From a virus: a DNA stretch of 38,505 bases. The stretch spans positions 1-38,505 of IMG/VR virus record IMGVR_UViG_3300032287_001537; one strand, given 5' to 3'. The notes beneath the pieces were generated by a model. The model saw nothing but the letters and a program-made list of their open reading frames with translations. It had not been told where the DNA came from and ran no database searches. This document shows, piece by piece, positions 124 to 23,052 of the stretch (positions are counted from its first letter, which is position 1; each line of letters opens with the position of its first letter). The translations under genes were made by a program, and so were the position numbers.

Positions 124-1478
124 CAGCCGTAGCGACGATAAGCAAACCAAAGCATTTCCATAAGTTCATCGCGCTTCATAGATCCAACCACATCGGCAAA
201 TACAAGGTATTCACCGCATCCGCGAACAAATGCGCGAGCTGTATCCTCATCAAGTTTGTTGCCTTGGTAAATTGTAGCCAGTCGGCGCAAAGTTGTTTCA
301 ACCTTCATTTCAAGTGATGCTTCAAAGATTGGCGTCTGATCTGCCAAGAGCTGACTTTTTAGAAAGTTGAGAACTGTGCTCTTTCCAGCTCCAGCAAATC
401 CACCCCAAACGGTTACTTCTCCTGGCCGAAACCAAAAGCCGTCATGCGGCCAACGCTTGCTCATAAATGGCAAAGTGAATGGTTCCTCTTTTGGTGTTAC
501 CTCGTAAACCAGCCTAGCTTCCATATCGGCAGCAGTTACCAATCGCTTTACCTTTGGCGTTGCTGCGTTAGCAATCCAATCGGAGGCATCTGTCGCAGTA
601 AAGCCGGCTAAAAGGCAATCGTTTGCATCCTTTTTTGGCATAGAAACCAGCAGGCACCGATGCTTTCCAAGTCGTCCGCTCACGTTCTCGGTGATCTTCC
701 GACCTGCATTGTCTTGATCAAAGGCCAAATAGATTGTGTCAAACGCAGCAAGATTGTCCCATTCGTAATCTACCCACGCACAACCACTGCCGTTTGGGAT
801 TGATAGAGCAGGCACGCCCCACTGATGCCATGTTGCTGCATCAATTTGACCTTCAGACAATAGCACTGTTTTGGCAGTGTAAGCCGCTTGTGATAAAGCC
901 TGCCATCCAAACAATGCCGGCGCGCAGTCTTTATCCTGCCAGACCTTCTTCTTGTCTCCTAGCGTTCGATAGGATCGGTTGATTAGTTCTCCCGTTGGCG
1001 AATAAGATGGAAAGACAATAGCTCCACGTTCAGGGCATCCTTCAATTTTAAACGCCTGCACTGTGCTATTTCTCAATCCGCGTTTGTCGCGAAGGTATGA
1101 CATGGCCCGTCCCGCTTCAGAAAGGGCACTAGAATCAATCTTTGGCGGCTTTGAGTATGATCGCACATCATAAGGTCTTACAACGTCTAAAATGCCTAAA
1201 TACGCCTTAGCCTGCTTTATTGCCTCAGCGGCAGTGATACCGCGAGACAAACGCCACAGGTCGAGCAGGTCACCTTTGTCGTCATTTGACCAATCGCGCC
1301 ACTGTCCTGCAAAAGTGCCGTGGATGCTGATCTTTAACGACTCACCAGGTGATCCGTCAATGTCACCGCAAAGCATCATGCCGTTGTAAACTTTTGCGCT
1401 AGGCAATAGTTGAGTGACAACAGACTGAGCTTGCGCTGCTAAACGCTCAGAGATTTCGCTGACTTTGAGTTCTACCAT
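1..1478 (-). CDS. Primase-helicase, N-terminal and central part (Twinkle/T7 gp4-like); runs off the window start
   Basis: This is the first 492 codons of a replicative primase-helicase that would prime and unwind DNA at the phage fork. The frame starts at an ATG at 1478, overlapping the end of the initiator gene, and stays open to base 1. Translated by eye it shows a short N-terminal region without a CxxC zinc motif, a TOPRIM core (E209 followed by G, then D254-Q-D256) and a RecA-like helicase core with Walker A (GAGKST, K366) and a Walker B-like segment (FMIDS, D458). The order TOPRIM then RecA-like ATPase, and the SIPNGSG segment after the TOPRIM glutamate, match the Twinkle/T7 gp4 family. 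Because the window ends repeat, the gene continues at 38382 and stops at 38106, giving 584 residues in the circular genome. Lack of a zinc domain makes primase activity less certain than helicase activity. Confidence 0.9.
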   Translation of the reverse strand, partial: MVELKVSEISERLAAQAQSVVTQLLPSAKVYNGMMLCGDIDGSPGESLKISIHGTFAGQWRDWSNDDKGDLLDLWRLSRGITAAEAIKQAKAYLGILDVVRPYDVRSYSKPPKIDSSALSEAGRAMSYLRDKRGLRNSTVQAFKIEGCPERGAIVFPSYSPTGELINRSYRTLGDKKKVWQDKDCAPALFGWQALSQAAYTAKTVLLSEGQIDAATWHQWGVPALSIPNGSGCAWVDYEWDNLAAFDTIYLAFDQDNAGRKITENVSGRLGKHRCLLVSMPKKDANDCLLAGFTATDASDWIANAATPKVKRLVTAADMEARLVYEVTPKEEPFTLPFMSKRWPHDGFWFRPGEVTVWGGFAGAGKSTVLNFLKSQLLADQTPIFEASLEMKVETTLRRLATIYQGNKLDEDTARAFVRGCGEYLVFADVVGSMKRDELMEMLWFAYRRYGCQHFMIDSLMRIEELEEDYPAQGQFCNRLQDFAKETGAHIH

Positions 1479-2509
1479 AACCCACCCTCCTCTGTTGGTG
1501 GCTCACCTTCGGCAAGGCGGCGCGCTTCTTCTTTTGCCGCTTTGTTGCGTAGCATTTTTTCCATGAGGTCTTCCTCTTCTGGCTCCTCTTTCGCCGGCGT
1601 AGGCCATGCATCTGACGCTGATGGTGTCTTTTGGCTCGGTAGGTAACCTTGAGCTTTCCATGCTCGCACTGTTGCGCGCCAATCCTTCATGGCCTTTCCG
1701 TTGTTCTGCCAGCCGTTGCCTTCCCATTTGTTCCACAGATATTCAGCGTCACGAGGAAATAACCCAGACTCGCGACAGAATTCTGTCAGTTCTTCAAAAC
1801 TTCCTCGCGCGTGTCTTTTCTTTTTCTTATCCTCTTCTTCTTCCTTATCCTTTTCTTGTTCTTGTAGGGTATCAATACCCTTTGCTAAGGCTTTGGATAA
1901 CCTTTCTTTTATCTCTATTATATCCAGTTTGGCAACAATACAAAAATCCTCAAGAGTCTTGTCGCCCTTCAAAAGGTTAAGTTTTGCATCCATTGATACC
2001 AAATTGGACGGCTTATTAGACCCACCTTTTGATCGTGGAACAACGTGATCAATTTCAATTTCATGAGGTAATAAAGATATTCCAGTATAAACGCACTTGC
2101 CGCCGTCACGAGCAATGATTGCGTCCCTGATTGGACCGTCAATTTTACTTTTAAAAAATCGGTTTTGTTCAATTTCATCCACATTTAAGCCATGTTTTTC
2201 TAAAGCCGAAAAAATTCCTTTATGAGGCTTGCATTCGCTGGATAGTTTACCGTATTGAAAAGCTATAAATTTTTTAATAATCCATTTATTTTCAAACAAA
2301 TGCTGAATCCTATCTCCTAATGCGGCTAAATCTGACTCTTTAATTTTTGAGCCTATATCAAAGCTAAAAAGCTCAGGATCAAACTCAAAAACTCCAGCTG
2401 GATCGCAAATATCACAAATAAGATGCCAAAGGCATTTTTGATGTATGCTAAGCCTGCGGAACCATATATCGCGCCATTTAGTAGTTTCTGTAAATCGTTT
2501 CATAGACAT
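1472..2509 (-). CDS. Replication initiator / helicase-loader-like protein with internal HNH domain
   Basis: The N-terminus (residues 1-100) resembles the winged-helix start of phage replication organisers: a KRFT...KW-RD-WFRRL opening, then a CDPAGVFEFD stretch. Residues about 128-185 form an HNH nuclease-like domain (IDHVVPRSKGG, D154-H155, N169, N178). The usual zinc cysteines are mostly absent (CVYTG and AKLN where CxxC pairs are common). A highly charged linker (about 215-232, E/D/K runs) leads to a C-terminal domain with WNKWEGNGW and MKDWRATVRAWK, as seen in phage initiator proteins. It lies directly before the primase-helicase, overlapping it by 7 bases, which fits an origin-binding or helicase-loading job. 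The start at 2509 has a GAGGG ribosome site six bases upstream; ATG 2503 is an alternative. The 5' two thirds of the gene is clearly AT-richer than its flanks, suggesting recent acquisition of that part. Confidence 0.7.
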   Translation of the reverse strand: MSMKRFTETTKWRDIWFRRLSIHQKCLWHLICDICDPAGVFEFDPELFSFDIGSKIKESDLAALGDRIQHLFENKWIIKKFIAFQYGKLSSECKPHKGIFSALEKHGLNVDEIEQNRFFKSKIDGPIRDAIIARDGGKCVYTGISLLPHEIEIDHVVPRSKGGSNKPSNLVSMDAKLNLLKGDKTLEDFCIVAKLDIIEIKERLSKALAKGIDTLQEQEKDKEEEEDKKKKRHARGSFEELTEFCRESGLFPRDAEYLWNKWEGNGWQNNGKAMKDWRATVRAWKAQGYLPSQKTPSASDAWPTPAKEEPEEEDLMEKMLRNKAAKEEARRLAEGEPPTEEGGLW

Positions 2510-2646: not shown

Positions 2647-3372
2647 CTATTTGGCGCTTACGGCCAAGCAAGCGGTTTCTGTTAATGTCCTCCATGCAAG
2701 TGCAACCACTCCTGGAACTTGTCCGTTTCCAATGGCGCTAAGTCTGTCCATTTGATGGGCCAACCCATGAGCCATTCTGTCCACTCCGGATTTATCCTTC
2801 CCCCAGCGTGAGTAGCTAAGGTCGGAGTATTTCTTCGCAATTCCGCCGGATAATTGCCTTCCTTTGAATTGTGTTTTGTCGGAGTGGGCAAAAATCCAGA
2901 TCCGGTTTCTAATGTGCTCTGCACCAACATCGCAAGCTCCGAGCACTCCCCATTTCGCATCATACCCCATCGCGGCCAAGTCTCCGAGAACTCGTCCAAG
3001 CCCTCTAGAAGTGAGAGCTGGCGAGTTTTCCACAAAGACGTGCTTTGGTTGTATTTCGCAAATGATTCGGGCCATATGATTCCATAATCCAGACCGCTCT
3101 CCATCGATTCCTGCGCCACGTCCGCTGACGGAAATGTCTTGGCAAGGGAAACCTCCGCAAACGATATCGACGTGCCCTTTCCATGGCTTTCCATCGAAGG
3201 TTGTGACATCGTCCCAAATTGGAAACTTTGGCAAGATCCCGTCTCGTTGTCGCTGCAACAAAACTTTTCTAGGGTAAGGTTCAATCTCGACAGCACAGAC
3301 GCAGGTATGTCCGAGAAGCATTCCGCCAAGGATTCCTCCTCCTGCTCCAGCAAATAGGTGTAGCTCATTCAC
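2647..3372 (-). CDS. DNA cytosine-C5 methyltransferase
   Basis: This 241-residue enzyme would transfer a methyl group from S-adenosylmethionine to C5 of cytosine, most likely shielding phage DNA from host restriction. Seen in order: motif I (LFAGAGGG, residues 6-13), motif IV with the catalytic cysteine (GGFPCQD, C77), motif VI (ENS, E115), the motif VIII region (HIRNRIW) and motif X (IGNGQVP). The target-recognition part between VIII and X is very short, so the enzyme is at the small end of the family. The start is a GTG at 3372 just after the upstream gene stops at 3383. A longer in-frame extension to 3696 only reads through that upstream gene and is rejected. An ATG at 3368 opens a second long frame over nearly the same bases (see the overlapping ORF). 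Confidence 0.9.
   Translation of the reverse strand: MNELHLFAGAGGGILGGMLLGHTCVCAVEIEPYPRKVLLQRQRDGILPKFPIWDDVTTFDGKPWKGHVDIVCGGFPCQDISVSGRGAGIDGERSGLWNHMARIICEIQPKHVFVENSPALTSRGLGRVLGDLAAMGYDAKWGVLGACDVGAEHIRNRIWIFAHSDKTQFKGRQLSGGIAKKYSDLSYSRWGKDKSGVDRMAHGLAHQMDRLSAIGNGQVPGVVALAWRTLTETACLAVSAK
2682..3368 (-). CDS. Overlapping 228-codon ORF inside the methyltransferase gene (coding status unproven)
   Basis: A second frame is open for 228 codons over almost the entire methyltransferase. Its ATG lies four bases after the methyltransferase GTG (GTGAATGAG) and it stops 35 bases before the methyltransferase does. The predicted product starts MSYTYLLEQ, has SETWPRWGMMRNGE near the middle, a GFLPTPT segment, and ends with NPEWTEWLMGWPIKWTDL and LETDKFQEWL. 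From memory, proteins with these same segments are annotated in many phages, where they seem to come from the equivalent frame of related methyltransferase genes. A conserved shadow frame could reflect only the conserved methyltransferase, or a genuine second product. No database was searched. Coding is possible but not demonstrated, hence the low confidence. Confidence 0.35.
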   Translation of the reverse strand: MSYTYLLEQEEESLAECFSDIPASVLSRLNLTLEKFCCSDNETGSCQSFQFGTMSQPSMESHGKGTSISFAEVSLAKTFPSADVAQESMESGLDYGIIWPESFAKYNQSTSLWKTRQLSLLEGLDEFSETWPRWGMMRNGECSELAMLVQSTLETGSGFLPTPTKHNSKEGNYPAELRRNTPTLATHAGGRINPEWTEWLMGWPIKWTDLAPLETDKFQEWLHLHGGH

Positions 3373-3382
3373 GTTAGTTTTA

Positions 3383-4021
3383 TTATTCTTTTTCAGACGT
3401 GTCGTAATGCCACGCCGACGAGTCCTCGGTCGTCCACTTTTTAAACGCCTCGCAATTCCACTCGTCCACATTGACCTTGTATTCAGGATGCACTGGAAAC
3501 GGCTTCGTGCAGTGACTTGGCTCATGCCATTTGAGCCTGTTGTTAGGCTGGATGGCAAACTCACCGCTATCAAGGCAAATGAAGTGTCCGCTCTTGTGCT
3601 CCTCTGGATGAATTGCGAGAGTAATATCGGCACCGTGCGTGTAGTCTGGGCCCCATTGCATTGTCCAGAGGTAGATTCCATCTGCCCACTTACCATCTTT
3701 CATCTTCACCGATACACGCAGGCCAGAGAGGAAGTTTAGTTCAACGATGGAGAAGTTAGCTGAGAACGAGTTCCATAACTGCAAGTGGTGAAACGGATGC
3801 TCATGCTCATGCTCGTAGTCATGCAGCGCATGGATCGGCAGCTTGTCACGCAGCGCACCGTTTTCGAGCAACACTTGGAACAAAGCGCATGAGCCTGGTA
3901 TTGATCTTACCGAGACGGCAACGCCTTTTTCGTATTGCCCTGCGTGCTCAGGATTGTTGGTCATGAACTCGCGTCTGACTAAGCACTTGAGTGGCGGAAT
4001 GGATGATTCGTGGAGTGGCAT
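3383..4021 (-). CDS. Conserved phage protein of unknown function (212 aa)
   Basis: I do not recognise a function. The product is soluble-looking, rich in His, Trp and acidic residues, with a histidine cluster (HDYEHEHEHPFHH, residues about 67-79) that could bind metal. There is no signal peptide or membrane segment. The start at 4021 has a GGA ribosome site and follows the preceding small gene directly (stop at 4023). It sits between small coiled-coil proteins and the methyltransferase in the DNA-metabolism operon, so an early role is likely. Confidence 0.75.
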   Translation of the reverse strand: MPLHESSIPPLKCLVRREFMTNNPEHAGQYEKGVAVSVRSIPGSCALFQVLLENGALRDKLPIHALHDYEHEHEHPFHHLQLWNSFSANFSIVELNFLSGLRVSVKMKDGKWADGIYLWTMQWGPDYTHGADITLAIHPEEHKSGHFICLDSGEFAIQPNNRLKWHEPSHCTKPFPVHPEYKVNVDEWNCEAFKKWTTEDSSAWHYDTSEKE

Positions 4022-6843: not shown

Positions 6844-7070
6844 GGCTTCACCTCCCGCGCTTTAAGCATGGCGTCTGCCTGTGCATAAGCTTTGCCTGAT
6901 ACTTCTTTGAAGGTAGTTTCTGGCGCGCAATACAGGCTTCCGATAATTGCTGTCATAGCCTGTCCTGCGAACCAGTCGCGAAGAGTCATGCCTTGACTAC
7001 CTGAGGTATATTCGCTTGGCTGGCGAGGAAACGCTGGGCCACCGTCGTTTATTTGTTCTGGTGTGTTCAT
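6840..7070 (-). CDS. Conserved small phage protein (76 aa)
   Basis: It has the layout of a widespread small phage protein: an N-terminal NDGGPAFPR segment, then GMTLRDWFAGQAM, then a helix ending in ADAMLKAR. The family is common near recombination genes, but I know of no established function. Overlaps of 4 bases on each side place it in the same translational chain as the exonuclease. Confidence 0.75.
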   Translation of the reverse strand: MNTPEQINDGGPAFPRQPSEYTSGSQGMTLRDWFAGQAMTAIIGSLYCAPETTFKEVSGKAYAQADAMLKAREVKP

Positions 7071-8239
7071 GATTCAAGTTGGTTATTCTTAACAATTTCA
7101 AAGCTTCCTTTGCTGGTTTCGGTAGCGCCATGCAGCACCTCATCTACCAGGTTATCAAGTGCCTTGCCCTTGGCGTTTGTGCTCTGCTTGATCAGCGTCT
7201 TGACACTGCCGAGAGGGATAGAGCATTCAGCCGCAAACGCATCGCCAGTTACACCGTGCGCCGATAGTCGGCTAAACACGGTAGTGACATCCGAAACACT
7301 ACGCCGACCTTTGCGCTCGCGAAGAGAATAGCCATCGATCTCACCTGCTGCGATGCGCCGGCGCAATTCCACATCGTGCGCGACAAGGAACCACTCCATA
7401 AATTTGCGACCGCCTTCTTGGATGCGGATCAGCATCTCGTTGCTCATTGAGGTATGATCACCCATCCGTGCAAATATTTGTGCTTTGACTTGCTCGTCGG
7501 TGCCTGAGATCGACTCAGGGACAATGGCATCGGTAACTGATAGCGCAGCGGCTTGGAACGCTGGGCAAACCATTTTAGCACGGCACCATTTGCAATGATC
7601 GCCGGCTACCGCATCTGCTACATTTGCTCGCTCTGCCGCATTAAGCGTGCTGATTAATTTAGCCTCAGCCGCACGCAGCGTCTCAAGGTCGTATTGAGCC
7701 ACGGTAGGCTTGCCAGCCCAAGGCTGAACGATTGCCACCGTTGCCGATGTGATCGGCTTGTGGAGCGATACAAGCGCAGCTAGAGCCATAAGCTGGTGGT
7801 TATCGACTGCGTCAGCGGTGTCACCTCGACCAGTTTTGTAATCGATGATCAGCGCGTGGGTGCCGTCGATGATGATAAGATCGGCTTGACCAGTAAATCG
7901 CAGCGATTGTTGAGCTTTATTGCTAACAACGACTGCTCTGCCAAAGTGTGTCAGGCCAAGCCGCACCTCGGTTAGGGTGTCCACATCGGTGCCGGTGATA
8001 TGCTCCGCGATAAGGGCATCGGCCTGGTGCTTGCACATGTCGTGCGTCTGCTCCTCATCGGAGGATAGCGTGCTGATATCAGCCTCGTTAGCCAGCACCG
8101 CATGGATGCGTGTTCCTGATGCTGCTGCTGCGCTTTCTGTGTCTGCGATGCCGAGGGACATCTGATGGGACGGTGGGCACTCAACGAGGCGCTCAAATGC
8201 GCTTGCTGATGGCAGTCCGTGACGTGGGTCTGTGTTCAT
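7067..8239 (-). CDS. PD-(D/E)XK exonuclease with likely 4Fe-4S cluster (Cas4/RecB-like, DUF2800-type)
   Basis: This 390-residue nuclease would resect DNA ends to give the single strands that RecT loads on. Seen: an SASAFERLVECPPS start with C21, a GTRIHAVL helix (H46), E91, D120 in GQAD, and the D133-Y-K135 catalytic motif in IIDYKTG. Farther on are C216, C219 and C225 (CKWCRAKMVCP). One N-terminal cysteine plus three C-terminal ones in this spacing is the iron-sulfur arrangement of AddB/Cas4-type nucleases. It starts in TAATG with the recT stop, so the two are made together, like RecE/RecT. Confidence 0.85.
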   Translation of the reverse strand: MNTDPRHGLPSASAFERLVECPPSHQMSLGIADTESAAAASGTRIHAVLANEADISTLSSDEEQTHDMCKHQADALIAEHITGTDVDTLTEVRLGLTHFGRAVVVSNKAQQSLRFTGQADLIIIDGTHALIIDYKTGRGDTADAVDNHQLMALAALVSLHKPITSATVAIVQPWAGKPTVAQYDLETLRAAEAKLISTLNAAERANVADAVAGDHCKWCRAKMVCPAFQAAALSVTDAIVPESISGTDEQVKAQIFARMGDHTSMSNEMLIRIQEGGRKFMEWFLVAHDVELRRRIAAGEIDGYSLRERKGRRSVSDVTTVFSRLSAHGVTGDAFAAECSIPLGSVKTLIKQSTNAKGKALDNLVDEVLHGATETSKGSFEIVKNNQLES

Positions 8240-9126
8240 TATTTTGTTCCTTTCTTGGCAAGTTCGCTCAATGGGGCGAAGTTAGTGATGAGAAATTGCA
8301 GCAACTCCTGGCTGGCATCCTCAATCGGGTAGTAATCCTGTCCGCCTTCACCGTTGGCTTGTAGGGTTTCCAACATGGTTGACCACTTAATTCCGGCGGA
8401 ATCAATCCGGAAAAGTGCCTGTTCTAACAGAGGTTTAGCGGATAATTCTTCCGTCTCAAGGCGAGCGATCTCGGATTTGAAATAAGTTACAGGTGGAATA
8501 TCTTTCAATTCTTCCTGCTTTGGCTTATCAAAAAGCTTGCTGGTGCGTGCTGGCGTTACATCGCGCACAGCAACGTCTTGAGCCTCATCCGCTGTCATCA
8601 TGCCCAACGTGATATCGGGAGCGTAGAGCCTAGCGAAGAACGCAGCGGAGCGATATCTGAGCATCAACTCAGGCATCGTGATCCATTTGCTGCCTGATTT
8701 AGTGCTCCAGCCCTCGGCCTTAGCCATAGCAAGCGTGATCTTCGGCCCCTCAAGAATAGAGCCATCGTCCTTAGACTTAGCCCAGGCAATGCATGAGCGG
8801 TCAGCGGTGCCCTCGGCGCCTTCCATGCGGAATTGCAATGGCTCAAAACGGCCTGAGCTGTTAACCATCGCAATCAAGAACGTAGCTCGGAAGCTGGGGC
8901 GACCGTGAATGATGTCGATATTTTGCAAGACCATGAAAGGGTCTGCGCCGAGGCGTTTTGCAATGTTAATGCCGATGGCACAGTTTGCAATGTTGCCTTG
9001 AAAATCTTTAGGAACCAAGGTGCTTGCGCTGAACATTTTGGCCTGACGTTGCAGCATGTCGAATGCCGCAGCTTCGCGCTGGATCTCAATGTCGGTGGTA
9101 GTAGATGTGATGATTTCTGTGCTCAT
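8239..9126 (-). CDS. recT: RecT-family single-strand annealing protein
   Basis: A 295-residue recombinase expected to coat single-stranded DNA and anneal it to a complementary strand. Supporting segments are the helical N-terminus, an ANCAIGINIAKRLGADPF stretch, GRPSFRATFLIAMVNSSG, a charged middle (WAKSKDDGS) and RYRSAAFFARLYAPD. This order and the GMMTADEAQD segment are characteristic of RecT-type proteins. Its partner exonuclease follows in TAATG overlap, making a RecE/RecT-like pair. Confidence 0.85.
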   Translation of the reverse strand: MSTEIITSTTTDIEIQREAAAFDMLQRQAKMFSASTLVPKDFQGNIANCAIGINIAKRLGADPFMVLQNIDIIHGRPSFRATFLIAMVNSSGRFEPLQFRMEGAEGTADRSCIAWAKSKDDGSILEGPKITLAMAKAEGWSTKSGSKWITMPELMLRYRSAAFFARLYAPDITLGMMTADEAQDVAVRDVTPARTSKLFDKPKQEELKDIPPVTYFKSEIARLETEELSAKPLLEQALFRIDSAGIKWSTMLETLQANGEGGQDYYPIEDASQELLQFLITNFAPLSELAKKGTK

Positions 9127-14103: not shown

Positions 14104-17100
14104 TCAGTCTTCTTCGTCTCCGTAGAACAGGGTGGTGGTATCCTTAAATACTCGGTCGGCTACACCTGGTGCAGCACCGGCTGGAGAAAGTGGAGTAGCA
14201 AGAGCGCCGCCGGCCTTCATGATTTCCCATGCTCCACCGAGGTAGTCTTCATCTTCCATTTTCTCTGGCAGCTTCTTGATGGATTCTATGAACTGGTCAG
14301 AGATGTCGACCAGAGGATTTGTGGATGATCTCCAATTGCGTGGCTTGTCCTGTTCCTCTCCTGTGATTTTCTCCGCAGCATAAGCGACCGCAGATGAGAT
14401 GAAGAACTCAGCCGCAGAGCCTAGCAAGAAGAACCCTTGCAAAGGCCCAACAAGTGCTGCGCGGATGAAGTTATCAACCTCCCACTCTTCGTCATCGTCT
14501 TTAAACATTGACCGAGTAACAGCATTTGCGACTTGGAACATTAGCCCAGGAATAACCCAATAGGCCAAAACCTTCCGTATCGTTTCCTCGTTGCTAGCAC
14601 CGCCACGCTTCCGTTTCATGATTGCTTCTCCAACAAGGCTTAGTTTCTGTTGAGGGTCAGAAGAGAACATTGACAGAAGGTTGAACACGCCGGTTGCATC
14701 ATTCTGCATTAGTGATCGGCCTGACCACTCACTTGGTTGACTCGTGCGCTTTACAACGATCGCCATTTCCCGTGCCGCGTATTTGTGAGCGGCTTCATCA
14801 CCAGCACCTGCTTTTTCAGCCTGAGCCAATCGATCTCCATACACCATTGCAGCAGAGTAAGATGTCAGCACGGCATCAGCATACTGAGTCGGCATCGACC
14901 CGTAGAGTAAGGCGTTCTCAACAAGTCGCAGGATTATGTTTTTAGATCTCCCAGGGTTTGCTAGAATGTCCCTAATTTCAGGAGTGCCTCCAAGCTCAAG
15001 TCGGTTCTGAATGCTGTCAGTGTCCCACATTCGACCCCAGTGCTGGATGCCTCTGGCAAATGCCGCCGGCCAATTTGGAATTGATATTTCACCCAGTGAA
15101 TAGAATATGCTTGAAAGCGTTTTGATTGACGTGCCGATGTTAAAGGCAAGCGCCTTGAGTGCTATGCCGGACTTTACGTTACGCATCATTTTCGATGCAT
15201 GCATAATCAATGCGCCCTTGCCTACGCCTCGCGACATTTCTAACTGCATCCACGAGGACAGTGCCTGCAACGCTTCGGATCCATGCTCTGACTTGATGGC
15301 ATTCTGAACGTCTGGGTTCAGCATGACGGCTTGAGTGTCGCGAAGATACTCAGCCATATTGATCCAGTAATCCATCTGCGCGAAGTGCGATTGATACACC
15401 GCCAATGCGCTTTCGATTCTCAGCGATGACGTTCTGCCTCGACGTGATTTCACAGCACCAGGGTTAACTGATTGTGATACAACGCCAGAGTTTAGAGGAT
15501 CAAGACTTGCTTGGTTGCCTTGATGATTCTTCAGCAAAGGAGCGTAGAACTGAATCTGTGGCATTCGAGTGTTGAACAGCTTCATGAATACCTCGTTGGC
15601 GGCATCGTATTCGTTCGCGTATTCCGCACCAAACCATGCCAGCCAGTTCTTGGCTTTGTCAGACATAAAATCCTCAAGCTCGGCCTGAGTGATATTGTCA
15701 TATCCATGGACAGTCTGTTGATCAAGGATGCCTGGTTGGCGCAATGCCATTGCCATGTAGACCGCTTCCATCTGCGACAATGGAATCTCAATGCGAGTGC
15801 CTTTGACCTTAACACGCTCAATGGTTAAGTTGCGCTTGCGTGATGTTGGCAGGTTAGACCATGCGTCCATTTCATCTTCCCACATACGAGCCTCCTCAGC
15901 AGAGTAACCAAATGTGGATGGAGATTTGATAATGCGCTCAACTTCCTCAACAGTTTTCGTGTCCTTTTCTCTGACCTCACCTTCCAGCTTGGTGACTCCA
16001 CTGCGCTGAACTCTGGTTTCCATCTTCTCTAGTTCGATGTCGAGGCGAATCTTCGACTTAGTGCCGTAGAGAGTCCGCATGAAATCACGCAGACCTTTCT
16101 TTCGAGCGGCTTGTCTAGTCTCAAACGCATTCACACCGAGGATCATTCGCTCATCAAAGTGGTCGGCAGTCTTGTTTGATTTACCAAACAGTGATGAGAG
16201 CAGGAATCGATGTGATCCTAGTTCGCGAAGCATTCCCTTCATCATGCCCTTCGTTGTGCCTTTGCCTTTGTCCTTGCCTCGTTGCACTGTCGCAGCATTA
16301 GCATCGCCAGCAAACGCATCAGCCTTCGCTTGCTCTACCATTTTGGCGACTTCAGCAGCACGAGCCTCGTCGAGCACCTTGCGAGCATCGCGACCCTGCT
16401 TCATCAGATCTTTAAGATACTCGTGCGCTACGTCCATTTCTTCTGCTGTGGTCTGCTTGCCATAGAGATCGCCAAAGATCTCAAGCAATTGACTTTTGGC
16501 AAATGCATCGGCGGCATCTTCTGAAGTCTGCGCTGATATGATTTCCGCCTCATAGCGTGCCGCTTCCTTGACGGTTTCTTCGTCCGACAGATTCGACATC
16601 GCGATGATCGTGTTCAACTCGTCCTGAACTGTGACAATAAACTTCGACTTCGGAATCTCGCCGGCTTTGCCTTTAACCGCAGCGGCTTCAAGCATCTTTT
16701 CGATTCGTTCGCCGTATCCTTTCTTGAGGTATTTCTCAATAGCCTTCTCAACCTTCGGCATGCGGTCTTCAATAAACCTAAGACGCGCTTCGTCGGATGA
16801 CAGTTTAGCCAATGTTGAAATGCTGCCGATTGTGCCACGAATCTCGGTAGGCATAGACGAAATGATAGCGTCATGCATCTGGATCCAGCCGTTGAGCTTG
16901 TCCTTCATCAGTGCCGCTTTCGCCTGTTCTGGAGTCGTCTCTTTCTCAAGCGACTTCTTGACCCAGTCAGGAGTCTTGTCGGTGACCTTGGCAAGTTTCT
17001 TGATTCGGCTTGCTTCCATCTCCGCAAGCTTGCGCTTTGCAGCACCAGGGCGACCGACATCATAGAGCGAATCAGCCGCTATCTTTTGAGCGCGTTTGAG

Positions 17101-20100
17101 CGCCATCACGCCAATCTTGAGCTTGGCTTCAGGTGATCCCTCAAAGATTGGCCGCAATGATTGCTCTATTCGTCCTGTGAAGTCTGATCTGGAGATTGAG
17201 AAAGTCGTGCCTTCCTGTAAAGGATTGGCTCCAACCTTTTTGAGTATCTCATCGCGTTCTTTAGCGGTAAGACCTAACGCTTCTAACCGTGCTTTAGAAG
17301 CTCCTGCAAGCTCGGCAACAATGGAATCACCACCTCTGGGAATCGATCCTCTATATCCTCCAACATTCCCTGAAGCACCGGCACCGTCAGTTCCGTCTGG
17401 CTGGTATTCAACATCGCTTTGAGAAGCTTGCGTTGATTCGGTCTCAATTTCTGGATTCGTTCTGTCGAAAATGCTTCCTGCATCCTCTTTTCCAAGTCTT
17501 TCGGGAGAGGCGGAAATTTGATTGGTGTCGAGTCCTTCATACCTCATTACTAAATCCATTGGTTTCGGATGTCTAGCTTTATCCCAACCTATTGAAGTCC
17601 ATTCAGCTTCCTGTGTTTCGCTAATTTCGGATGAACCTTTTGATTTAGATTCGACCTTCCATCCATGATTACCAAATAAAGAAGCAAGAACTCCAAGAGG
17701 CTTTTTATCTGTGATAACATTAGTTATCTTGACCATGTTTGCGCCTTCGGATAATGCCTTATGCATCATCACATCCATTGCGCCTTTCAATGCAAGCTCG
17801 TTTGAAATAGCATTGAACATTTCCATTGTTCCGTCTGCGTTCTTTTTGATTGCAAAGAAGATGGCAAAGCCAGGAAGTTTGTATATTTTTAAGGTATTAT
17901 TTTTAAGTGCTGCCTTAATTTCTGGTTCTGTCATTGACACTAAATTGGATGTCGCGACAGAGTTTTTTACCGCACGCATATAGCTTGCGATGTTCTTAGA
18001 CTTACCCTTCTGAGCTACTTCCCATTTATTATCTAAAGCTGAAATCATCATCAATGCACGATTTCGCGGAATGCTAAGTTTCTGCACATCGTTAATCGCG
18101 TTAAAGACTTTTGGAGTCAATTTCTGTAACTTCACACTCTCTGGAAGCTTTGCTTGCATGAGATAAGTCGGACTGCTGTCTGGTGAAGCTTGCTTCATTT
18201 CCCTGACCATATCAGGGAAAGCTACATTCATTGGCACTGGTTGACGCAGATGCGTTACGATTTCACCTGGTAGAACTGTGTCATAGGATAAATGCTCTGG
18301 CACTCCAAAGTCAGAGGCATTTAACGTGTCATCACGCAAACCGGCACGAAGTCTAGTGACATCAACCTTAATCACATTGAGCATACTGCCGCCAGTGATC
18401 ATGTCATATGAATCATCGCGACCTTGTCTGATTGCAGTCTCAACATCAGGCAAACCAAGAGCAATGCCGTCTTGCTTTTTCAGACGATTCATTACTTCTG
18501 CTCGTTCTGGATAGATTAGCGTTTTGACGTAGTCTTCCATCTCCTGAGCAGTCCACTGCTCTGGGAAATTCATCAGTCGATTCTCGGTTGGTTCCTCTGG
18601 CTTTTTTGGTTCTTCGTATTTATCAAGAGGTCTGAGTGGTTTATACTTTTTCCCAGCCTGATCTGCTGCCTCTCTTCTGACTGCTTCAACTGCGCTGCGC
18701 GTTTCTACTTTTTCTAAATACTTGGCTTTTAATTTTACCTTTTTCTCTTCCCAATTTGGTAATGTTTTTTCGTTGTATTTCTTGATGGCTTCATTAAGAG
18801 CGTTCTGCCCAGCCGCTTTCATCATTTTAGCAAGAGCAAGCTTCTGCGCGTCTGTTGGGTTTGAGGCTTCAACAGCATTCATGAACGACATGAACATGTT
18901 GTTGTTACTCTGATGTGCATCTTGGCTCATCGCAAACACAGCAACCAACGCCCACTCGTGACCATCAGTGTCTTTCCACACTCCTCCACGTTTGTCTAGG
19001 TATCCAAGAATGCCAGCAATAGCGCCACGCGCAGATCGCCAAGCAACGTCAGTTCCATAGTGTAGAAGCGGGTGAATTGGCCCACCTTCCCAAGGCACGC
19101 CAACGCCAGTTCCACCAGCCATAAGATCTGCCATGATAGGCAGAATAACTCGGTTAAGATATTCGCGATCTATTGTGGATGAAATGCCCAATTTATCAGC
19201 AAGGTCATTTGCTGACTCTTTTGTGTATCTTCCAAGTGAGAATGAAAGCGGCCCTGATTCACTAGTTTGTGAAACATCCACTCTCTGCCCATTCTCCTCA
19301 AGAATCTTCACAAGCGACTCGTCGAAGATGACGTAGTTGCTCGTGCCTTCACCTGCTGCGCGACTGCTGCCGTCGAGGTAGCGGATGCCTGGAATGCCGA
19401 GAGATGCGAGACGTTCGGAAGTAGTTTTGGACGCGGTCTGGTTATCCGCTGCGTTGTCACCATAAGACACAAACACTTCAATAGCCTTTTGCGGCCCTTC
19501 TGCAAAACTCACATCTACCTCTGCGCCAATGTTTTGTCCTTCCACGTTAAAGATGTTCCAACGTTTTCCATCCCACTCTGCGCGCATGCCCGCAGATGCT
19601 TTCATGCGATCGTATGCTTGCTTCCCTTCTAAGTTAATGTCATATCCTCGAAAAGCAACCCTCACCTTCTCACTCTGCTCACTCAGCGGCTTATCCCAGT
19701 CCAAGAAGTCTTCTTCATCGGGCAGGAGTTCGACGGTGTAGAGGTTGCCTAGTCCAATAATTTCTTTTAGATCGCCACTATCAAGAATAGCGTTAACCTC
19801 GCTTACCATGTCCTCTTCAATATCTTGAATCGACTTTTTACCTGCAAATACATCAAGAGCTAATGCTTCTGCTGAATTGTAATCAAGCAAGTTGCCATTT
19901 CCTGAAATCCATCCGTTGCTTGTATCGCTGTAAAAAGGATCATCCCAAAGTGTTCGAACGCGTTCACCTGCTGCGTTTGGATTTTCCGCAGATAATTTGC
20001 GACGATAATCTTCCGCTACCTTTCTCGCCTTAGCAAAGTAAAGTCCCCAACCAAATGCCTGCGCCCCTTCGCCAGTGCCGATCTTGGCCATGCGGAAACG

Positions 20101-23052
20101 ATCCACTTGATACGGCGTGCCGTGGTAAGCAGTGATCGAGAACGTGGTTGGCCCAACTAGCTGCGCCCCGTCTGGCATCTCAGTGATGTTGCTGGTGTCG
20201 GCAGGTTGTGCGCGGCCCATAGACATGGACACGCCGGCATCCGCAGCAATGCCTGTAGCGGTATCAACAACGGCATCTGCGTTGCGATTAGACACATTCA
20301 GACCAACGCTCTTTTCAAGCGCATCGATGAAGTCCTGGTTCATGCCATTGGCATCGTAAACCGCTTTGATCTGCGATGCTCGGTAAAGGATGTTGAGAGT
20401 CTTTTCGCCCACGAGGTCGATAGCGTCTTTGAGTTCCATGCCGGCAATGCTCGACTGGAGACTGCCTAGGTAAAGATTGAGTGGCATGTCTGAAGTGAAG
20501 GTCGGACGCTCAACGGCTTTAGCAGTCTGCACATAATACGATTTTGCGATGTGCGAGAATGCCTCAATGATTTCCATATTGGAAACCTGATCGTCGTCGG
20601 CAGTGGCAATCAAAGGCATGTGCTTTTGGCCCATTTGCATAGCTTGCGCCTCCATCTTCGCCTCGACATCTCTGATCTGTAAGATGAGCTTTGTTCGGCT
20701 CATCGGATCATTCATCAATCGCTTTACGCCGACCTCTGCGCTTTCCTCAATAAGGTCAAGAAGACTGCCGCCACTATAAAGTGTGATGACTCCAGTTGAA
20801 ATTCCCTCGCGTTGTTCAATTGAGTTTGTGCCTAAAATTCGATAGTTTTTATTATCCTTAACTTCAGATTCAAGGGTGGCATCTTCAAATGAAACATCCT
20901 CTGCGGCACCATCAATTTGGTCTGTCAGTTTAATGCGCTCATCTACCTGAGAAGCAGTTGATGGGAAAAGCTCAGTGAATGTCTTTGTGAACATATCAAA
21001 GTCCATCAAAGCAATATCAAGACCCTGCTTTTCTTGTAAGCTAATATTCATCGATGTGATGAATTCTTGCTCTGCTTTTCTAATGCTAGCTTGTCTATTT
21101 TTAACGTAAAGCATCTGCGCTTCATTCGCTTCACTGATGGAATTGAATTGTGCGCTGACACCTGAATCAACGACTTCGCCTTTTGATCCTTTTAAGATAG
21201 GAGTCGTAAACTGATACTTACCGTTGCCAAGGTTTGAAACAGTTCCAAGACCAAATTCTTTTTTGAGCTTGTTGTAATACTCAAGAGAGTTAGATGCTTG
21301 TGTATTAACCTTTTCTTCAGCTTCTTTAATCTGTTCTGGAGTTGCTTTGTTGGCTTTATCAAAACCTTGTCGAAACAGTTTATCGACCTCGTTATAATTA
21401 CCCTTTAATCCTTCGGCTGTAATTTGGTTGGCTAAATCAGGAGAAATGCCACTAGCGACCATGTAATCAGGCGAGGTCATTAGTGCTCGTGAATTTTTTA
21501 CGTCTGCAATGGAGATTCTGCCAGCCATTAGAAATGAGATAACAAGAGCAGGGCCAAACGTCTCCTTGGCAATGTCCGAGATCTTCGGCATACGCTCGTC
21601 CCAATCAGCCTTAGCAATACCACTCTCAATTGACCATTCAGTCTGCCACTCAGAAAGCAAATCTTGAGTGACAAGCGGTGTCACTGTCTGCATGATTTCT
21701 TCTGTGATCTCGGTGCCAGTGTTAAGTGAACCACGAATTGCCAAACGAATTGCAGCACTCTTGATGCTCGTGGTTGATGCTTTCAACCATTTGTCAATGA
21801 ATGGAATTTTGATCTTGCCTAGTGGTAGAGCATTAGAAAGAAACTCCTGCCCAGCCATGATCGGCGCAGCAACAAACGCAACTATCTCAGAGTTCTCAAG
21901 TGACGCGCCAGCATTAACAGCTTCAATTGTTGCTTCATCCCTAAACTGTCCTGTCATAATAGCAATTGATGCAGGGCCGTTAATAAATGTAGCAGTCATT
22001 AATGGTGCCATGCGTGCAATACCAATGCCGGTATCCTCCCACCAGTTATTGCCTTCAATCGGATTGATCTTGTTTTGAGCCATCATTCTGATTTGACCGG
22101 CTAACACCTGAAGATCTCGACGTTTTGTAGCCATTTCTGATGTTGCCTTTGCTAAACCTGGAAGGTTCATTGCAGATAGTCCCATCTCTAAGCCGCTATA
22201 TGCTAAAGACTCAGCCATATTGCTTGTCCCTGTTACTGCTTTTTCAATCTCGCGATCCATTGCAAGCATGATCTTTTCAAGATAAACACGCTTTTCTTTT
22301 GGCGCAGCAGCACCGATTTCACCGATGGCATTGATTGCAAGCAGACGTTCCTTTGGCGGCAATGGCAATAAGCTTTCTGCCACTTTCTCAAAAGCGGTGT
22401 AAGCGCCCTCCGCTTTTGTATCATAACCCTCAATAGTCTTTGCCGCCTGGTCAATGATGGTGCGATATGGCGCAAGCTTCTGCGTGTATTCCATGTGCAG
22501 ATCTTGAATCGACTGGTGATAGTCATCAATGCGACCGGCGACCGGCGAGCCAGTTAAGCCGACATCGAATTCACGCATTGCACTATCAGCGGTGAGATCT
22601 CGTGCCGCTGCGCCAAATGCAAAGTTGTGAGCATTGTCCTGCGCTTTGTAGTTCTCTCTGACAAGGTTGTAGAACTCGTCGTTGGTGACGTTCTTCTTTG
22701 GCAGTTTAAACACCTGCTGGGCATAGGCATCCTGATAAGCTGGAAGCGTTAGGCTAAAATAATCGACAGGCTTCTTTTCTTGGCGAGCAATCCAAGCAGT
22801 GTTGGCAGCACCTTTCTTGATGTTCGCTATATCTTCAGGTGCTGCTCCAAAGCCAGCCATGATGTCATCATTGATCTCGACGCCCTCGACTGTATCTGTC
22901 GTAAATGCTTTTTTAACGCCTTTATCAATCTTCAAATCTTCAGCTTTAAAATATTCATCAAGGGCAGTTGCCATCTTGAATTTTTGCATGTCAGGAATAG
23001 CTGGATCCTCAATGCCTAAAGCGAATTCCTTTGCCTGTGTTTCGTTAATCAT
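14104..23052 (-). CDS. Giant polyvalent internal virion protein with ADP-ribosyltransferase-like domain (2,982 aa)
   Basis: This takes up nearly a quarter of the genome and holds the place of T7 gp16, the ejection protein that leaves the capsid with the DNA. About residues 970-1250 look like the ADP-ribosyltransferase domain of phage polyvalent proteins: ITAYHGTPYQVDRF, GTGEGAQAFGWGLYFA, then GIRYLDGSSR and NYVIFD. A stretch near 750-770 (GGSLLDLIEESAEVG) resembles the degenerate metallopeptidase segment of such proteins. A region around 1,730-1,820 (VFNAISN-like strand, MDVMMHKALSEGANM, FGNHGWKV) could be a GNAT-like fold. The last 900 residues are long helices ending in hydrophobic segments (VIPGLMFQVANAV, VGPLQGFFLLGSA) that may enter the membrane. 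ART activity would modify host proteins on entry. The domain calls are from motif memory. Confidence 0.75.
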   Translation of the reverse strand: MINETQAKEFALGIEDPAIPDMQKFKMATALDEYFKAEDLKIDKGVKKAFTTDTVEGVEINDDIMAGFGAAPEDIANIKKGAANTAWIARQEKKPVDYFSLTLPAYQDAYAQQVFKLPKKNVTNDEFYNLVRENYKAQDNAHNFAFGAAARDLTADSAMREFDVGLTGSPVAGRIDDYHQSIQDLHMEYTQKLAPYRTIIDQAAKTIEGYDTKAEGAYTAFEKVAESLLPLPPKERLLAINAIGEIGAAAPKEKRVYLEKIMLAMDREIEKAVTGTSNMAESLAYSGLEMGLSAMNLPGLAKATSEMATKRRDLQVLAGQIRMMAQNKINPIEGNNWWEDTGIGIARMAPLMTATFINGPASIAIMTGQFRDEATIEAVNAGASLENSEIVAFVAAPIMAGQEFLSNALPLGKIKIPFIDKWLKASTTSIKSAAIRLAIRGSLNTGTEITEEIMQTVTPLVTQDLLSEWQTEWSIESGIAKADWDERMPKISDIAKETFGPALVISFLMAGRISIADVKNSRALMTSPDYMVASGISPDLANQITAEGLKGNYNEVDKLFRQGFDKANKATPEQIKEAEEKVNTQASNSLEYYNKLKKEFGLGTVSNLGNGKYQFTTPILKGSKGEVVDSGVSAQFNSISEANEAQMLYVKNRQASIRKAEQEFITSMNISLQEKQGLDIALMDFDMFTKTFTELFPSTASQVDERIKLTDQIDGAAEDVSFEDATLESEVKDNKNYRILGTNSIEQREGISTGVITLYSGGSLLDLIEESAEVGVKRLMNDPMSRTKLILQIRDVEAKMEAQAMQMGQKHMPLIATADDDQVSNMEIIEAFSHIAKSYYVQTAKAVERPTFTSDMPLNLYLGSLQSSIAGMELKDAIDLVGEKTLNILYRASQIKAVYDANGMNQDFIDALEKSVGLNVSNRNADAVVDTATGIAADAGVSMSMGRAQPADTSNITEMPDGAQLVGPTTFSITAYHGTPYQVDRFRMAKIGTGEGAQAFGWGLYFAKARKVAEDYRRKLSAENPNAAGERVRTLWDDPFYSDTSNGWISGNGNLLDYNSAEALALDVFAGKKSIQDIEEDMVSEVNAILDSGDLKEIIGLGNLYTVELLPDEEDFLDWDKPLSEQSEKVRVAFRGYDINLEGKQAYDRMKASAGMRAEWDGKRWNIFNVEGQNIGAEVDVSFAEGPQKAIEVFVSYGDNAADNQTASKTTSERLASLGIPGIRYLDGSSRAAGEGTSNYVIFDESLVKILEENGQRVDVSQTSESGPLSFSLGRYTKESANDLADKLGISSTIDREYLNRVILPIMADLMAGGTGVGVPWEGGPIHPLLHYGTDVAWRSARGAIAGILGYLDKRGGVWKDTDGHEWALVAVFAMSQDAHQSNNNMFMSFMNAVEASNPTDAQKLALAKMMKAAGQNALNEAIKKYNEKTLPNWEEKKVKLKAKYLEKVETRSAVEAVRREAADQAGKKYKPLRPLDKYEEPKKPEEPTENRLMNFPEQWTAQEMEDYVKTLIYPERAEVMNRLKKQDGIALGLPDVETAIRQGRDDSYDMITGGSMLNVIKVDVTRLRAGLRDDTLNASDFGVPEHLSYDTVLPGEIVTHLRQPVPMNVAFPDMVREMKQASPDSSPTYLMQAKLPESVKLQKLTPKVFNAINDVQKLSIPRNRALMMISALDNKWEVAQKGKSKNIASYMRAVKNSVATSNLVSMTEPEIKAALKNNTLKIYKLPGFAIFFAIKKNADGTMEMFNAISNELALKGAMDVMMHKALSEGANMVKITNVITDKKPLGVLASLFGNHGWKVESKSKGSSEISETQEAEWTSIGWDKARHPKPMDLVMRYEGLDTNQISASPERLGKEDAGSIFDRTNPEIETESTQASQSDVEYQPDGTDGAGASGNVGGYRGSIPRGGDSIVAELAGASKARLEALGLTAKERDEILKKVGANPLQEGTTFSISRSDFTGRIEQSLRPIFEGSPEAKLKIGVMALKRAQKIAADSLYDVGRPGAAKRKLAEMEASRIKKLAKVTDKTPDWVKKSLEKETTPEQAKAALMKDKLNGWIQMHDAIISSMPTEIRGTIGSISTLAKLSSDEARLRFIEDRMPKVEKAIEKYLKKGYGERIEKMLEAAAVKGKAGEIPKSKFIVTVQDELNTIIAMSNLSDEETVKEAARYEAEIISAQTSEDAADAFAKSQLLEIFGDLYGKQTTAEEMDVAHEYLKDLMKQGRDARKVLDEARAAEVAKMVEQAKADAFAGDANAATVQRGKDKGKGTTKGMMKGMLRELGSHRFLLSSLFGKSNKTADHFDERMILGVNAFETRQAARKKGLRDFMRTLYGTKSKIRLDIELEKMETRVQRSGVTKLEGEVREKDTKTVEEVERIIKSPSTFGYSAEEARMWEDEMDAWSNLPTSRKRNLTIERVKVKGTRIEIPLSQMEAVYMAMALRQPGILDQQTVHGYDNITQAELEDFMSDKAKNWLAWFGAEYANEYDAANEVFMKLFNTRMPQIQFYAPLLKNHQGNQASLDPLNSGVVSQSVNPGAVKSRRGRTSSLRIESALAVYQSHFAQMDYWINMAEYLRDTQAVMLNPDVQNAIKSEHGSEALQALSSWMQLEMSRGVGKGALIMHASKMMRNVKSGIALKALAFNIGTSIKTLSSIFYSLGEISIPNWPAAFARGIQHWGRMWDTDSIQNRLELGGTPEIRDILANPGRSKNIILRLVENALLYGSMPTQYADAVLTSYSAAMVYGDRLAQAEKAGAGDEAAHKYAAREMAIVVKRTSQPSEWSGRSLMQNDATGVFNLLSMFSSDPQQKLSLVGEAIMKRKRGGASNEETIRKVLAYWVIPGLMFQVANAVTRSMFKDDDEEWEVDNFIRAALVGPLQGFFLLGSAAEFFISSAVAYAAEKITGEEQDKPRNWRSSTNPLVDISDQFIESIKKLPEKMEDEDYLGGAWEIMKAGGALATPLSPAGAAPGVADRVFKDTTTLFYGDEED

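Follow-up and report, generated by a model that had tools for sequence, protein, structure and literature searches.

One cytosine-5 DNA methyltransferase is very probably encoded as two polypeptides from the same DNA, in two reading frames, in the window studied here, which is the whole 38,505-nucleotide (38.5 kb) stretch of IMG/VR virus record IMGVR_UViG_3300032287_001537 and carries terminase, head-tail adaptor and tail genes. The original prediction had described two long overlapping frames with starts four bases apart, and these were confirmed on the minus strand (3372..2647 and 3368..2682); the shorter frame, here called beta, is +1 relative to the longer, alpha, and is nested entirely within it. 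We propose that alpha (frame 0) would provide the whole catalytic (large) domain, with motifs I-VIII and the C-terminal motif X helix, and that beta (+1) would provide the whole target-recognition (small) domain, with the TRD and motif IX. The features of the locus are as follows.

2647..3372, minus strand: alpha, C5-methyltransferase catalytic subunit; GTG start, 241 aa (PF00145, phmmer, AF2)
2682..3368, minus strand: beta, candidate TRD and motif IX subunit; ATG start, 228 aa and stop (phrog_1008, 2e-24)
3363..3372, minus strand: double start GTGAATGAG, with the alpha GTG at 3372 and the beta ATG at 3368
3334..3366, minus strand: alpha motif I (ELHLFAGAGGG), by motif reading and alignment
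3130..3156, minus strand: alpha motif IV with catalytic Cys77 (GGFPCQDIS), invariant in the alignment
3019..3036, minus strand: alpha motif VI (FVENSP), by motif reading
2890..2940, minus strand: alpha motif VII/VIII region (GACDVGAEHIRNRIWIF), with R155 and R157 invariant in the alignment
2737..2889, minus strand: alpha VIII-X spacer, with beta-type substitutions and pLDDT < 50 for residues 169-216
2692..2736, minus strand: alpha motif X (AIGNGQVPGVVALAW), with alpha-type substitutions and an ordered helix at 218-240
3069..3368, minus strand: beta residues 1-100, with pLDDT of about 40 and alpha-type substitutions
2946..3065, minus strand: beta W-rich segment SFAKYNQSTSLWKTRQLSLLEGLDEFSETWPRWGMMRNGE, apparently doubly coded, with frozen four-fold sites and a predicted hairpin at 104-115
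2799..2900, minus strand: beta TRD module (SGFLPTPTKHNSKEGNY...THAGG), a hypervariable module that is swapped and shuffled among relatives, with beta-type substitutions
2739..2798, minus strand: beta motif IX (RINPEWTEWLMGWPIKWTDL), whose L185 counterpart aligns to M.HhaI motif IX; predicted helix
2685..2738, minus strand: beta C-terminal tail (APLETDKFQEWLHLHGGH) over motif X, conserved in the beta alignment, with its first codons doubly constrained

Directly upstream of alpha lies a gene for a 212-aa protein (3383-4021, minus strand) that matched phrog_3704, labelled ferredoxin, at 2e-51 and matched no Pfam family. Just downstream of the methyltransferase is a 345-aa protein with an HNH endonuclease domain (1472-2509, minus strand), which may be a homing endonuclease or else a replication-type protein into which an HNH has been inserted. 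Elsewhere on the minus strand a PD-(D/E)XK exonuclease (DUF2800; 7067-9126) adjoins a weak RecT match, the two being a phage recombination pair, and a 2982-aa protein (14104-23052) with ITAYHGTPYQVDRF...GWGLYFA, resembling an ADP-ribosyltransferase-like segment, is probably a multi-domain virion protein.

The alpha chain carried the hallmarks of a C5-methyltransferase, namely motif I, PCQ in motif IV, EN in motif VI, RxR in motif VIII and GN in motif X. Its PF00145 match (1.3e-32) was limited to residues 3-170 and its phmmer match to M.HhaI (7e-15) extended over the N-terminal half, with motif X (AIGNGQVP) at residues 213-227, ~50 residues past motif VIII. The AF2 model of alpha took up a C5-methyltransferase fold (Z 18.9 against M.HhaI over 191 residues) and was disordered only at 169-216, the VIII-X spacer, which is the TRD and motif IX of beta read out of frame. 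The original prediction was therefore wrong to credit the methyltransferase frame with all core motifs, as the alpha chain has neither TRD nor motif IX (PF00145 ends at 170 and the VIII-X gap is not the constrained frame), both of which were found in the second frame.

Beta matched phrog_1008, labelled DNA methyltransferase; no Pfam family was found in it, and a PDB search returned a chance match only (E 0.6). Across relatives, the beta modules between motifs VIII and IX begin with (L/W)PTPT. Among pairs in which alpha motifs I-VIII were 85-90% identical, 79% had TRDs below 45% identity while their motif IX block remained at 81%, and identical TRD modules reappeared at differing positions and copy numbers. 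This pattern of conserved, hypervariable and again conserved sequence, together with module exchange, argues that the beta module is the TRD. Up to 4-5 tandem PTP modules were seen in the +1 frame of L218, L223 and others, which suggests multispecific methyltransferases with several TRDs, as some Bacillus phages have.

The window's NPEWTEWLMGWPIKWTD reads as motif IX, equivalent to LNPDWVEWLMGYPISWTD of a group of relatives (L185-L232) in which LNPDWVEWLMGYPISWTD...GNAVVP is in the alpha frame and PF00145 covers 2-321 of 324 positions. There, LNPDWVEWLMGYPISWTD aligned with M.HhaI motif IX LHPRECARVMGYPDSYK, an alignment weak alone, with motif X directly after it. Modelled alone by AF2, beta had a mean pLDDT of 52 and was ordered only in 100-117 and about 186-228; at this pLDDT the TRD fold is tentative, and it is by its motifs that beta would be the small domain. 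Residues 1-100 of beta are predicted to be mostly motifs I-VI read out of frame and disordered, and this region is missing or broken in the relatives of type B (architectures below) and in L082 and L083.

An overprinted gene, which the original prediction had raised, would make beta a de novo protein with a function of its own, such as antirestriction or methyltransferase regulation. The beta ORF is indeed fully nested and lacks a Pfam family, and all the beta homologues examined sit over a methyltransferase. However, the constrained part of beta comprises the TRD and motif IX that alpha is missing, and in relatives of type C beta also has motif X, so that beta is not a protein unrelated to the function of the gene that houses it. 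We consider this explanation very unlikely: rather than a new gene laid upon an old one, the locus would hold one enzyme whose two domains are in alternating frames. The antirestriction guess found no support, and the guess of a methyltransferase partner, since beta has what alpha lacks, was supported.

To identify the constrained frame along the gene, we used the codon offset of the +1 overlap: the third position of an alpha codon is the second of a beta codon, and the first of alpha is the third of beta. The position that changes fastest therefore reveals the frame under constraint. We counted differences at each alpha codon position across 39 pairs sharing 90-99% identity and repeated the count in 37 disjoint pairs. 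Over motifs I-VIII the differences at alpha positions 1/2/3 were.044/.014/.142, the alpha pattern; over the VIII-X gap they were.130/.023/.031, the beta pattern; and over motif X they were.059/.055/.181, the alpha pattern again (39 pairs). The same three-part pattern was seen in the 37 disjoint pairs, and the constrained frame thus switches from alpha to beta and back to alpha along the gene. Codons -4 to -1 ahead of motif X were slow at every position (.125/.030/.059), which indicates a short doubly constrained stretch. Alpha four-fold sites over beta SLWKTRQLSLLEGLDEFSETWPRW differed at 0.05-0.08 in the disjoint pairs, versus 0.15-0.34 across most other parts of I-VIII, and this W-rich segment, which the original prediction had singled out, appears to be selected in both frames.

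Both frames were also kept open where the other was the constrained one. Over motifs I-VIII, 2 beta-frame stops were seen versus 245 expected from synonymous shuffling of alpha, and over TRD-IX, 0 alpha-frame stops were seen versus 224 expected from synonymous shuffling of beta (92 non-redundant genes in each case). Of 95 loci retrieved with beta as the query, nearly all had an open +1 frame (median 2 stops, versus 16 in the +2 frame; codon-permutation p <= 0.01 in most), and so did 72 of the 73 distinct loci retrieved with alpha, whose selection did not depend on beta. The sequences and sequence pairs compared here share ancestry and the counts are not independent, so that it is the effect size and not a p-value that carries the argument. 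A chance ORF is ruled out by the open +1 frame and the depletion of stops across relatives, and both frames would appear to be translated throughout. Premature stops in the second frame and a lack of selection beyond that of alpha, the outcomes named beforehand as counting against it, were tested for and did not occur, bar single beta stops in L061, L121 and L177. The L177 copy, which comes from a prophage of E. coli PCP07014 and is annotated as a pseudogene, is interrupted in alpha and beta alike, by TGA (alpha) and TAG (beta) within 7 nt (2863-2869), through which both subunits would have been lost together.

These data bear directly on whether beta is an untranslated shadow, kept only through conservation of alpha. 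Residues 1-100 of beta do vary as alpha constraint alone predicts, stop avoidance excepted, and for these first ~100 residues the idea of a conserved shadow stands; over TRD-IX it falls, as beta is the constrained frame there and alpha is the shadow. With beta stops about 100-fold depleted over I-VIII as well, the shadow is the least probable of the explanations weighed here, and as a full account of beta it is rejected by the beta-type substitution pattern over TRD-IX.

The double start was itself conserved. Asparagine at position 2 of alpha was encoded by AAT, never AAC, in 65/65 alpha-selected genes with Asn there and in 78/78 of the beta-selected set, which overlaps the alpha-selected one, compared with an AAT share among other alpha Asn codons of 43% (alpha-selected genes) and 35% (beta-selected set). 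As AAT at this codon creates the beta ATG, its strict use preserves the beta start. In a start-site survey of 120 genes, ATG, GTG or TTG stood at the alpha position in 110, and in the remaining 10 the alpha start must be upstream. A Shine-Dalgarno-like site was present in 65 of the 120, in 55 of these at 2-5 nt from the alpha start and hence 6-9 nt from the beta ATG; no clear site was found in this survey at the window's own start.

The constrained segments follow one another (I-VIII, TRD-IX, X) as they would in an ordinary single-chain enzyme, which could instead point to programmed frameshifting, +1 after motif VIII and back before motif X, that would give a single polypeptide and no separate beta; L090 and L094, whose alpha begins in the beta frame, also fit such a fusion. 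But a fusion could tolerate stops in the +1 frame over I-VIII and in the alpha frame over TRD-IX, and stops were near absent in both; the beta ATG is strictly conserved, and alpha of type C ends soon after motif VIII. We therefore regard frameshifting as improbable, though less so than the overprinted gene or the shadow, and a fusion as the only product is rejected by stop avoidance in both frames. In L090 (2917-3651) and L094 (889-1935), from two Akkermansiaceae MAGs, the residues read in the beta frame are MNELALFAGAGGG, the remainder of alpha lies in the other frame, and there is an indel near a G run, which could be slippage, phase variation or assembly error.

Beta scans found 202 viral-contig relatives (80 kept), 67 phage records, 9 plasmid records and 8 genome contigs, and every relative examined had beta at +1 to an alpha-type methyltransferase. 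On this evidence hundreds of other phages and prophages appear to share the overlapping-frame design, and an E. coli DNA search added prophage members (L177/L178). The annotated frame is alpha in SG4 gp64 and E. coli PT62, and beta in Vibrio phage 1.291.O and Pseudomonas phage phPA-G. Three architectures were distinguished. In A, that of the window, motif IX is in +1 and motif X in frame 0; in B, motifs IX and X are both in frame 0 and the TRD is in a +1 ORF starting inside the gene, with the same frame switch in substitutions; in C, alpha stops soon after motif VIII and the TRD, IX and X are all on beta. In L185-L232 and L183, a group known from a Ca. Megaera plasmid as well as from viral contigs, the alpha frame includes motif IX, and only the TRD is left to a +1 ORF, which has about 130-180 aa and opens at an internal ATG.

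Among the scored loci in which a TRD motif could be recognised, all had the TRD in +1 relative to I-VIII and none had it in frame 0. No single-frame relative with the same TRD was found in the viral contigs, genome contigs, phages and plasmids searched, in a search with family members as the only queries, by which a distant single-frame relative could be missed. In a tree of motifs I-VIII, B formed one group (support 98) and C was scattered, its well-supported branches requiring 8 or more changes (long branches being present), so that motif X has probably changed frame repeatedly. We infer that a frameshift after motif VIII gave rise to the layouts, and that in A and B a second frameshift later in the gene compensated for it.

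Natural splitting of a methyltransferase between alternative frames is already known in principle from one restriction-modification enzyme. In M.EcoHK31I beta is read from an alternative frame within alpha and both chains are needed for activity; the window locus likewise has its small polypeptide in an alternative frame inside the large gene. The description in PMC3404938 assigns motifs I-VIII and X of M.EcoHK31I (YGGCCR; Lee, Kam, Shaw 1995) to its large polypeptide and IX to its small one, a motif layout matched by the window. A difference from M.EcoHK31I is that beta of the window starts 4 nt after alpha. The same description places the predicted TRD of M.EcoHK31I on the large subunit, whereas the selection pattern of the window puts the TRD on beta, which suggests that the M.EcoHK31I placement should be re-examined. 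Unlike M.EcoHK31I, the present arrangement is found in phages, and no cognate nuclease was recognised in the window.

In M.AquI (CYCGRG), again by the account in PMC3404938, catalytic motifs I-VIII are on one chain and IX-X on a small one. This division, with IX and X on beta, is shared by the type C relatives L096, L233, L238 and L256, but not by the window, where motif X is on alpha, motifs IX and X are not together on the small chain, and beta is fully nested. Alpha has the same catalytic fold and motifs as M.HhaI and other single-chain PF00145 enzymes; in M.HhaI, however, the TRD and motif IX lie between VIII and X in one chain, and in the window they are on a second, overlapping polypeptide. 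Artificially bisected M.HhaI (PMC3439449) and M.SssI (PMC3404938), split between motif VIII and the TRD, reassemble from fragments into active enzyme, but these are engineered and have separate, non-overlapping genes, where the window's overlap is natural. Splits matching the two domains were obtained with circularly permuted M.MpeI and M.SssI (PMC5944983); there the match needed circular permutation, whereas alpha of the window is the large domain as it stands. As the small domain of an ordinary chain lies between VIII and X, no single cut parts the domains, and two frames do.

For the two-chain enzyme we infer expression, complex formation, activity, a target sequence and a protective role along the following lines. 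Both chains would start from the adjacent start codons on one mRNA, and alpha and beta would fold on each other into one enzyme, in which the beta TRD would read the target and alpha would transfer the methyl group. The VIII-X part of alpha and the first ~100 residues of beta would be mainly out-of-frame spacer that must remain open. The likely use to the phage would be modification of its own DNA against host restriction, and exchange of the beta TRD would alter the target. We give roughly an even chance to a wider interpretation, in which this is an old and large superfamily of phage and prophage C5-methyltransferases, with the TRD permanently in +1, three architectures and motif X reframed repeatedly, of which M.EcoHK31I would be a member with its TRD on beta; double coding would turn a non-contiguous domain into a specificity subunit of its own that can be exchanged, with both subunits tied to one gene.

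No account of the overlap in phages, of domain-wise frame switching or of a TRD in +1 was found in the openly accessible literature searched, and the spread among phages and the switching of selection between frames appear to be new. With one frame annotated per record, many entries named "DNA methyltransferase" or "hypothetical protein" would be half an enzyme; if so, cloning the annotated half by itself would yield inactive protein, and anyone predicting the target from alpha alone would be examining the wrong chain. For targeted-methylation tools, the family would offer natural, cleanly divided two-domain methyltransferases. The locus would be a very clear DNA-virus case of two overlapping frames alternating as the functional one, and what was a curiosity of one restriction-modification enzyme would become a widespread phage design.
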